IMG/VR virus record: IMGVR_UViG_3300031839_000243
Coordinates: 1-38,023 of that record
Length of the DNA stretch: 38,023 nucleotides
Direction: 5' to 3' (one strand)
From: a virus
Shown: positions 3,486 through 7,303 of the stretch, piece after piece
How the letters are laid out: every line of letters begins with the position of its first letter
Position numbering within the stretch: the first letter of the stretch is position 1
The notes under the pieces: generated by a model
The model's database searches: none
What the model saw: only the letters and a program-made list of their open reading frames with translations
Told to the model about the DNA's origin: nothing
Program-made: the position numbers and the translations under genes

Positions 3486-4313
3486 TTAAACTCCACACAT
3501 TCCTTCACATTCATTATTAAACATATCTAGTTGATTGTCGTTTTCTTTTTTATTAAATTCCACTTCATCTAATGGTTTACATGATCTATGAAGATATAAT
3601 TTATCTCTTACATTTCTTGAACCTGTTCTAATATTTTTGTCAAATTCTACAGCGTCTGCAAATTCTTCTTTTCTCTCAGTTTTCATAAAATGCCAATAAG
3701 CATCATTATGATAAGGACATACAATACAAGCTGACTTTTCAGGTAGTGGTATGTTTTCTTTTTTTAAGTAATTTATACAATCTTGTCTTGACATCTTAGC
3801 TTCAATTAAAGGATGTCTATTTAAAATATATTTATCTCTAGCAGGTTTCATTCTTTGAATTTCGTCTGTAGATATACCAATCCATTGTTCGACATATTTG
3901 TCTTTAGGAAAATGTTTTCCATAGCCTACATTACAAAGTTCTCTTATTTTTTTTCTAATTGGTATAATTTTATAATCTGCGGTGCATTGTCTTCGTAACA
4001 TTCCCTTTTTACCTGTTATTTCTGCTTGTGTAAAAAAAGGAGCTGTTGGAAATCTTGTTCCATTATCTATGGAATCTAACATGTCTTTTTTTATATTACC
4101 TTTAGAAACTACATATACTGGATAAGGTAAAATTTTTTTTAAAAATTCAAGATAACTATAAACTTTTTTGGGTTCATAACCTGTGTCTGCAAATATTGCA
4201 CAATCTGGTTTAGGAAACTCTCCTTTAGCTGCCATAATCGCCATCACAGAACTTTGAACACCAGCACCCAAACTAATTACTGTTAAAGTTTTTTCTCTAT
4301 TTTTATCAATCAT
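3486..4313 (-). CDS. PP-loop ATP-dependent enzyme, phosphoadenosine phosphosulfate reductase family
   Basis: The 275-aa protein has the N-terminal PP-loop SLGAGVQSS (residues 14-22) and a strand-helix ending in FADTGYEP, typical of PAPS reductase/DndC/ATP-pyrophosphatase folds. Downstream are RRQCTADYKIIPIRKKI and SACIVCPYHNDAYW, Cys motifs common to the phage branch of the family. The CysH active-site ECGIH tail is absent, so true assimilatory sulfate reduction is unlikely. An activity on nucleic acid or another adenylated substrate is possible. It overlaps the upstream coiled-coil gene by ATGA. Confidence 0.8.
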   Translation of the reverse strand: MIDKNREKTLTVISLGAGVQSSVMAIMAAKGEFPKPDCAIFADTGYEPKKVYSYLEFLKKILPYPVYVVSKGNIKKDMLDSIDNGTRFPTAPFFTQAEITGKKGMLRRQCTADYKIIPIRKKIRELCNVGYGKHFPKDKYVEQWIGISTDEIQRMKPARDKYILNRHPLIEAKMSRQDCINYLKKENIPLPEKSACIVCPYHNDAYWHFMKTERKEEFADAVEFDKNIRTGSRNVRDKLYLHRSCKPLDEVEFNKKENDNQLDMFNNECEGMCGV

Positions 4314-5711: not shown

Positions 5712-7079
5712 TCACTCAATTTCTTTCCAATCCTTTTCTATTTCATAAGTTAATTCTTTATCAAATTTTATATCTTTTAATAAAGGTTTTATTTTATTCC
5801 AATCTTCTATAGATGGATAAGAAAAACAATTATCTTTTCTAAACCAATGCTCAATCTTAGTTTTAGCAATATCTGTATTATTAACTAATTCTTTAATTGT
5901 AGTTTGTGATTTAAGATAATCAATAAATTCTAATTTATCTGGTAGGTTAGGTCTATACATAAAAGGTTTATCAAATTGATCTATTAATTCTGGATTATTT
6001 TTTAAAAATTCCATAGCAACATCTGTTGATAAAGTTATTTGAACTCTTTGATTACTATTTCTATTTACTTTTCCTTTTAAAATTTTAGCAGCATAAATCA
6101 TGCTATCTTCATTTGTGTCCATTGAGGTCGGTGTTCGATACATTCTCTGCTTCAATGATTGCTTTTCCAAGTTCTCTTGCGATTTGTGGTACGATTGAGT
6201 TTCCAAGACTTTTGACTCTGTTGGCTCTATCTTTGTCCAATTCATAGGATACCCCATTAGGAACTCCACAAAGTTCGGATTGAGTTTGCCACCAGGTTTT
6301 ATTTTCTGTTGTTGAATCATGTTCCCTATTACTGAAGTCCGATTTTTTTGACTCTGAGGAAATGTTAGATTCTTTGCATCGTTGGTTGTCGGTGTATTGT
6401 AAATTTTGTTCTTCTCCAAGTATATCATTGCATCCGATAGTTTTGCTCCGAATGTCATTTGAGGATTGTTTTTTTTCCGAAGAATAAAACCCCCAGATTT
6501 CGTTTGTTCCACTCTCTCCGATTGCTCCCCTCCTTCTTCGCATCCTACTGTCGGAGTTGGATACATCTGAACAAATGCAGTCAGATTGTGTTGACTTGCT
6601 TTTTTCCAACCTTTCCTTTTTATCAAACTTTCTGCATTTTCTTGACCTGATGCTTTCGGAGTTGGGTACATCTTCACCGCTAGTGGCAGAGGTGTTCCCC
6701 CTTGTTTGTATTTCTTGGTTCTCTCTGATGCCGAATCTTGTGTTGGAGTTGGATACATTACATCCGATAATCCAGATTCTTTTTCTTTGATGCCAAGCAC
6801 CGATGCCTGAAGCTGGTATAATAAGACATTGGACTTCGAAACCTTCTTTTTCCAAGTCAGTTTGCACCTGTCTGAGTACCATGCCTTCTTGGATGTTAAT
6901 AAGACCTTCAACATTTTCGCCAATGAACCATTTTGGTTTACATTCTCTGACGACTCTAATAGTTTCATCCCAGAGGTATCTATCGTCATCTGTTCCTTTT
7001 CTTTTCCCTGCAACTGAGAATGGTTGACATGGGAATCCCCCAGTAACGACATCTGCTTGGTATTTATCTCCTTTGACAT
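5712..7079 (-). CDS. Phage protein read in a second frame of the cytosine methyltransferase, with C-terminal HTH-like domain
   Basis: This 455-aa frame overlaps the methyltransferase gene on the same strand, in the +1 frame, for about 970 bases (6109-7079), then continues alone for about 400. It looks like a true protein. It has CKLTWKKKVSKSNVLLYQLQ, five YPTPT-like or YRTPT/YNTPT repeats, and GGKLNPNFVEFLMGYPMNWT, features of a widespread stand-alone phage family often misnamed DNA methylase. After residue 370 a separate domain (LPDKLEFIDYLKSQTTIKEL, then IAKTKIEHWFRKD and FSYPSIEDW) resembles the HTH-like tail of phage methyltransferases. The N-terminal start is uncertain. Its function may be to assist DNA modification. 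Confidence 0.68.
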   Translation of the reverse strand: MSKEINTKQMSLLGDSHVNHSQLQGKEKEQMTIDTSGMKLLESSENVNQNGSLAKMLKVLLTSKKAWYSDRCKLTWKKKVSKSNVLLYQLQASVLGIKEKESGLSDVMYPTPTQDSASERTKKYKQGGTPLPLAVKMYPTPKASGQENAESLIKRKGWKKASQHNLTAFVQMYPTPTVGCEEGGEQSERVEQTKSGGFILRKKNNPQMTFGAKLSDAMIYLEKNKIYNTPTTNDAKNLTFPQSQKNRTSVIGNMIQQQKIKPGGKLNPNFVEFLMGYPMNWTKIEPTESKVLETQSYHKSQENLEKQSLKQRMYRTPTSMDTNEDSMIYAAKILKGKVNRNSNQRVQITLSTDVAMEFLKNNPELIDQFDKPFMYRPNLPDKLEFIDYLKSQTTIKELVNNTDIAKTKIEHWFRKDNCFSYPSIEDWNKIKPLLKDIKFDKELTYEIEKDWKEIE

Positions 7080-7254
7080 TTCTTATTTCTCCTTCGATTG
7101 GTATGTTTTTAAAATTCTTTTGCAAGACCTTTTTACAAAATTGGTCTTTCTCACAAAAAGCAATTGTTTCAAAGTGTCCGGTAGATTCTAAACCTAATGA
7201 AAATCCACCGATACCACTAAATAAGTCTAAGACCTTTAGTTTAGTTTGTTGCAT
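6109..7254 (-). CDS. dcm: DNA (cytosine-5)-methyltransferase
   Basis: The 381-aa protein (from ATG 7254) carries the C5-MTase motifs in order. Motif I is DLFSGIGGFSLGLE (residues 10-23). Motif IV is GGFPCQPFSVAG with catalytic Cys76. ENVEGL (from Glu113) is motif VI and QRKRIWII is motif VIII. The C-terminal NRVKSLGNSIVPQIARELG is motifs IX-X. Between VIII and IX is a polar, low-complexity region with VSNSN, VPNSE and VSNSD repeats, which is the part also read in the other frame. It methylates cytosine in DNA, probably to protect phage DNA from host restriction. A TTG start at 7275 would add seven residues. Confidence 0.92.
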   Translation of the reverse strand: MQQTKLKVLDLFSGIGGFSLGLESTGHFETIAFCEKDQFCKKVLQKNFKNIPIEGEIRNVKGDKYQADVVTGGFPCQPFSVAGKRKGTDDDRYLWDETIRVVRECKPKWFIGENVEGLINIQEGMVLRQVQTDLEKEGFEVQCLIIPASGIGAWHQRKRIWIIGCNVSNSNTRFGIRENQEIQTRGNTSATSGEDVPNSESIRSRKCRKFDKKERLEKSKSTQSDCICSDVSNSDSRMRRRRGAIGESGTNEIWGFYSSEKKQSSNDIRSKTIGCNDILGEEQNLQYTDNQRCKESNISSESKKSDFSNREHDSTTENKTWWQTQSELCGVPNGVSYELDKDRANRVKSLGNSIVPQIARELGKAIIEAENVSNTDLNGHK

Positions 7255-7303
7255 AATAAAAAATAAATAGAGCAATCTCTATTGCGATAATTGTTTCAAG
7301 CAT
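7241..7303 (-). CDS. Possible 20-aa membrane peptide
   Basis: This tiny frame encodes MLETIIAIEIALFIFYYATN, a single hydrophobic helix. A good ribosome site (AAAGGAAC) lies 7 bases before its ATG. It spans the end of the 56-aa gene and the first codons of the methyltransferase, so its translation could couple the two. The length is too short for homology evidence. I call it from the ribosome site and composition only. Confidence 0.4.
   Translation of the reverse strand: MLETIIAIEIALFIFYYATN

Follow-up and report, generated by a model that had tools for sequence, protein, structure and literature searches.

Two overlapping reading frames in a viral genome

Does the cytosine methyltransferase gene of the viral record IMGVR_UViG_3300031839_000243 (IMG/VR) encode one protein or two? 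We analysed the whole 38,023 nucleotides of this record, which are called the window here. On its minus strand an open reading frame (ORF) for a C5 cytosine DNA methyltransferase, named alpha, shares 971 bases with a second long frame, named beta, which lies in the +1 frame of alpha. The initial annotation, made from the sequence alone, had claimed this same-strand overlap with the frames and coordinates found here, and had regarded it as real dual coding of the enzyme and a partner protein. Both frames are under selection and beta has its own initiation signal. Most probably, judging from the sequences, the two frames encode two subunits of one C5-cytosine DNA methyltransferase of the M.EcoHK31I kind. 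This kind of enzyme is known; the members described here are new and widespread. The genes and the start signal of beta are as follows.

6109-7254, minus strand: alpha, C5 cytosine DNA methyltransferase with motifs I-VIII and X, motif IX not detectable; 381 amino acids (aa) from ATG, Pfam PF00145 (8e-56)
5712-7079, minus strand: beta (P1), 455 aa from ATG, +1 frame of alpha, PHROG_1008 family, carries the block assigned to motif IX
6109-7079, minus strand: region read in both frames, 971 bases
7089-7094, minus strand: Shine-Dalgarno sequence AAGGAG of beta, 9 nt upstream of its ATG, within the alpha codons for ..IEGEIRN..

The listed alpha ORF begins upstream at a TTG (7275), and the alpha ATG lies at 7254. 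In profile searches alpha matched the Pfam family DNA_methylase, and beta matched PHROG_1008 (5e-30) with no match in Pfam or NCBIfam.

Selection on both frames

An open second frame does not by itself indicate a second protein. Alpha alone might be translated, the open +1 frame being a by-product of its composition or of conserved nucleotides. This is what one would expect in GC-rich homologues, where the +1 frame should be nearly stop-free anyway (0.1 stops expected for the locus L331). An open frame alone is therefore uninformative in such homologues and only score and constraint tests count there; few such loci are included in these tests. In the window, however, shuffling the synonymous codons of alpha put an average of 10.9 stops (minimum 4) into the shared beta frame, and none of 10,000 shuffles was stop-free. 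The real +1 frame also outscored all 40 synonymous shuffles in 42 of 42 loci, with a median z of 10-14.

The initial annotation had proposed to look for stops in the second frame of homologous methyltransferases and to compare synonymous variation inside and outside the overlap. With beta queries, 170 loci were fetched, and in all of them beta overlaps a methyltransferase in +1. With methyltransferase-only queries, the beta frame was found at E<1e-5 in 153 of 153 methyltransferases (78 bacterial, 75 viral), and the third frame was stop-free in none of them. The hidden Markov model (HMM) of beta used here was derived from the beta-query loci and phage records, so that the bacterial loci serve as an independent test. 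Synonymous variation was compared in 57 independent pairs, mostly viral. At alpha fourfold sites the difference was 0.251 outside the overlap; inside, it fell to 0.086 over motifs IV-VIII, to 0.073 in the variable region and to 0.038 ahead of motif X, which makes these sites 3- to 7-fold less variable there. Simple codon-position counts concur. Over alpha motifs IV-VIII the fourfold sites of beta differ by only 0.049, so both frames are held there. Neither of the two proposed checks refuted dual coding.

A Shine-Dalgarno sequence and a start codon near motif IV were present at 116 of 153 viral loci (76%), versus 22% expected by synonymous shuffle. In some relatives the Shine-Dalgarno sequence of beta is read in another register of the alpha codons, e.g. 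taAGGAGGataaATG. As a control we used 16 ordinary C5 methyltransferases, some from genomes that also carry the two-frame type, others from genomes of the same class. Their +1 frame holds 259 stops versus 260 expected, and beta is absent. The shuffles, the fourfold-site constraint and this control rule out a chance open frame. Together with the enrichment of the Shine-Dalgarno sequence they contradict translation of alpha alone, which we consider next to incredible, and they strongly support the dual coding that had been claimed.

In a tree of the N-terminal halves a single branch (100/99) parts the beta-bearing from the ordinary enzymes. Since members of the beta-bearing family served as queries for the sample, the tree is consistent with one origin of the beta-bearing enzymes, but is no proof of it.

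At the alpha start (7254) no Shine-Dalgarno sequence is evident, neither here nor in most of the marine relatives listed, and that of beta is strong. Beta may be made in excess. A candidate hairpin before the alpha start (about 7260-7280) was rejected; it was no better than in shuffles and is not conserved in relatives.

Position of motif IX

What could beta contribute? In C5 enzymes the small DNA-recognition domain is built on motif IX. In the window the motifs are distributed over the two frames as follows; the alpha motifs are given by motif position, motif IX by a gapless motif IX matrix.

7201-7227, minus strand: alpha motif I, DLFSGIGGF
7015-7041, minus strand: alpha motif IV, GGFPCQPFS, holds the catalytic Cys
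6904-6921, minus strand: alpha motif VI, GENVEG
6772-6795, minus strand: alpha motif VIII, WHQRKRIW
6234-6284, minus strand: assigned motif IX, beta frame, LNPNFVEFLMGYPMNWT, directly before alpha motif X on the DNA
6184-6216, minus strand: alpha motif X, VKSLGNSIVPQ

Alpha carries the C5 motifs I, IV (PCQ), VI (ENV), VIII (QRxR) and X. It aligns to M.HhaI over residues 2-164 (motifs I-VIII) and over a weak stretch at motif X. Motif IX was not detected in the alpha frame, where the best score over 98 homologues was at most 0.9 bits; ordinary C5 enzymes mostly score 22-58 with the motif IX HMM, and 2 of 16 score lower. Beta contains an invariant block, LNPxxVExLMGYPxxWT, which in the window reads LNPNFVEFLMGYPMNWT; motif IX of ordinary enzymes reads LTPEECEQLNGFPKGWT or LTPVECELIQMFPPNWT. 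The canonical matrix covers 18 residues and was built without gaps from 12 ordinary motif IX segments. Among 15,461 windows of 18 residues from all ORFs of the window the LNP block ranks first with a score of 15.0, the runner-up scoring 5.3, and it is the top 18-mer of 161 of 162 betas. Its place on the DNA, next to alpha motif X, is the usual one of motif IX, in the other frame. From its sequence and position we identify the block as motif IX, displaced into the beta frame. The partner protein that had been proposed for this locus is thus real and overlapping, and the motif IX in it had been missed.

A single chain with motif IX could also be obtained if programmed frameshifting fused the N-terminal half of alpha to the C-terminal half of beta. 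One contig resembles such a product: in L045:1645-3144 alpha runs on, after a shift of one base, into motif IX and the tail of beta, which gives one long ORF and the loss of motif X. This ORF is either a sequencing error or a natural fusion. Beta, however, possesses its own Shine-Dalgarno sequence and start, the alpha frame retains motif X, which would be lost in a fused chain, and L045 is a single case that may be an error. Frameshifting appears very improbable.

Variable region and C-terminal tail of beta

Beta carries about five YPTPT-type repeats, and past the end of alpha it continues alone. These features of beta are:

6798-6866, minus strand: conserved beta-hairpin, CKLTWKKKVSKSNVLLYQLQASV; strands in predicted models, moderate confidence
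6741-6755, minus strand: repeat 1, YPTPT
6654-6668, minus strand: repeat 2, YPTPK
6549-6563, minus strand: repeat 3, YPTPT
6387-6401, minus strand: repeat 4, YNTPT
6126-6140, minus strand: repeat 5, YRTPT, downstream of motif IX
5712-6108, minus strand: tail past the alpha end, helical domain (aa 367-444) by predicted model and match to Alsa_2 CDS0045

The initial annotation had correctly described the YPTPT-type repeats and a GGKLNPNFVEFLMGYPMNWT block in the second frame, as well as the reading of the repeats as VSNSN/VPNSE in the alpha frame. It had further proposed that the target-recognition region of the enzyme is tied to the partner. This is largely reversed by the fourfold sites of the variable region. 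The difference at beta fourfold sites is 0.195, i.e. 0.64-0.97 of the non-overlap rate, and these sites are nearly free; the corresponding range for alpha fourfold sites is 0.21-0.39, and these are held. Selection in the variable region thus acts mainly on beta, and the alpha reading is nearly free. The VSNSN repeats of alpha look like by-products of the YPTPT repeats of beta. This direction of selection suggests, without proving it, that target recognition has moved to beta. A wider statement is conceivable, although we lean slightly against it: throughout this clade of phages selection on the DNA that separates motifs VIII and X would act almost only on beta, beta with its YPTPT modules, motif IX and optional tail would be the recognition subunit, and the variable region of alpha would be a near-neutral by-product linker instead of a target-recognition domain.

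A domain continuing beyond the overlap had been claimed as well and is present. Residues 350-450 of beta give a confident helical model, with a predicted local distance difference test (pLDDT) score of 82-96. Over 83 aa the tail shares 39% identity (E 1e-14) with a stretch inside Alsa_2 CDS0045, an N4/N6 methyltransferase encoded by Staphylococcus phage Alsa_2. In Twort-like Staphylococcus phages (Alsa_2 and relatives) the tail-like domain is an insert in this methyltransferase. That the tail is shared with a stretch inside another methyltransferase fits a putative DNA-recognition domain, and suggests that methyltransferases of different classes use a mobile recognition domain.

Two-subunit enzyme or separate protein

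The presence of motif IX makes it simplest to regard beta as a subunit of the enzyme to which alpha belongs. Alpha would provide the binding of S-adenosylmethionine (AdoMet), the catalytic cysteine and motif X. Translation of beta would start within alpha from a ribosome-binding site of its own, and beta would provide motif IX, the YPTPT-repeat segments and here also the C-terminal putative DNA-recognition domain. Alpha and beta would then assemble into the active enzyme, as in M.EcoHK31I, with which the phage probably modifies its own DNA. Physical assembly, the need for both chains, the role of beta in target recognition and the use in self-protection are what we infer.

Several observations weigh against this two-subunit enzyme. 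A short local motif IX HMM stayed below significance on beta, so that motif IX is identified by the gapless matrix, by its position and by its absence from alpha. The core of beta models poorly (pLDDT 59 and 64 in two models) and no structural match was found by fold with these low-confidence models, which give no basis for calling the fold new. In M.EcoHK31I the predicted target-recognition domain was placed in alpha (PMC3404938). The collections searched did not yield the M.EcoHK31I sequences, and the likeness described here is one of layout; when they were sought via Enterobacteriaceae plasmids and E. coli genomes, the regions inspected held only prophage-type copies.

Beta could also be a real overlapping protein outside the enzyme, i.e. 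a separate phage protein that arose by overprinting, such as a regulator or an inhibitor of host restriction. The sequence search gave no relative of beta with a solved structure, C5 enzymes hold no counterpart of the YPTPT repeats, and the tail might bind DNA as an independent domain. Against this, the stand-alone partners that the initial annotation had named beside phage methyltransferases were not found. Among the 170 loci fetched with beta queries none has a stand-alone beta and all have the methyltransferase; one 178-aa PHROG_1008 match in a Bacillota genome (L375) lies outside that check. Moreover, beta holds the motif IX that alpha lacks, and its tail resembles a domain within another methyltransferase. 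A role outside the enzyme is unlikely in our view, and the two-subunit enzyme is preferred.

Distribution, gene neighbourhood and annotation

Many phages and prophages, forming a large family, share the two-frame form, which annotation mostly overlooks. The alpha/beta pair was found in Paenibacillus larvae phages, N15, Lacticaseibacillus, Erwinia, Klebsiella and Peduovirus-like phages, and also in bacteria from many phyla. One query had 582 relatives, of which the best 80 make up the bacterial loci; they give no estimate of the frequency among all C5 enzymes. Prophage genes are the commonest phage-family matches beside the bacterial homologues, whose neighbourhoods look prophage-like. The commonest defence-family matches there are methyltransferases, and no restriction enzymes are among the 25 defence families listed. 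In 61 Bacilli genomes most C5 enzymes match full-length PF00145, like ordinary ones, and only 2 of 199 Bacillota genomes have a PHROG_1008 match, one being the search-centre genome.

In three E. coli RefSeq regions inspected, alpha is annotated and beta is not. In the marine phage KT997847 (L082:2543-3130) the beta frame is labelled "putative cytosine-specific methyltransferase", and the PHROG_1008 label is similar. If beta is indeed a subunit, beta proteins are absent from databases or mislabelled in them, and codon-optimised cloning of the annotated gene would destroy the hidden subunit and yield an inactive enzyme. The pair would also be a ready system for the evolution of two proteins on shared DNA and for the setting of target specificity.

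On another contig a second methyltransferase fragment of the same family (L011:6414-7163, 72% identical) accompanies the first pair. Near the pair in the window lies a PAPS-reductase family gene (3486-4313, minus strand; PHROG_424, 2e-52), and this family recurs beside bacterial homologues. It is possibly a sulfur-based DNA modification partner.

Comparison with known systems

The PHROG_1008 family, labelled "DNA methyltransferase", is matched by 12 of 12 members of a diverse beta alignment, but the label does not reveal that the family is no catalytic domain but a methyltransferase gene read in its second frame. Gene 50 of the Paenibacillus phage Diva ("g49 internal gene") has the same arrangement, which was noted by its annotators; it differs in lacking the repeat-rich extension and the tail domain, and no function was proposed. 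In the literature we found nothing on the overlap besides mentions of M.EcoHK31I.

M.AquI is likewise a single C5 enzyme made from two polypeptides. In the M.AquI type, however, the small subunit carries motifs IX and X, whereas here alpha keeps motif X, and the two genes overlap by 971 bases.

The closest likeness is to M.EcoHK31I (YGGCCR). Lee, Kam and Shaw reportedly found in 1995 that its smaller polypeptide is encoded within the larger one in another frame and that both are needed in vitro. Encoding of the second chain inside the first gene in another frame is also seen here, except that beta extends beyond alpha. The beta polypeptide of M.EcoHK31I has 176 aa; in contrast, beta of the window has 455 aa with its repeats and a C-terminal domain running past the alpha end, and the pair is phage-borne. 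In both, motifs I-VIII and X lie in the first polypeptide, which is the larger one in M.EcoHK31I, and motif IX lies in the second, the smaller subunit of M.EcoHK31I holding only motif IX (PMC3404938). The M.EcoHK31I arrangement has been cited as an exception, but it seems to be the norm within a large clade of C5 methyltransferases from phages and prophages, in which the same-strand gene overlap is long and widespread.
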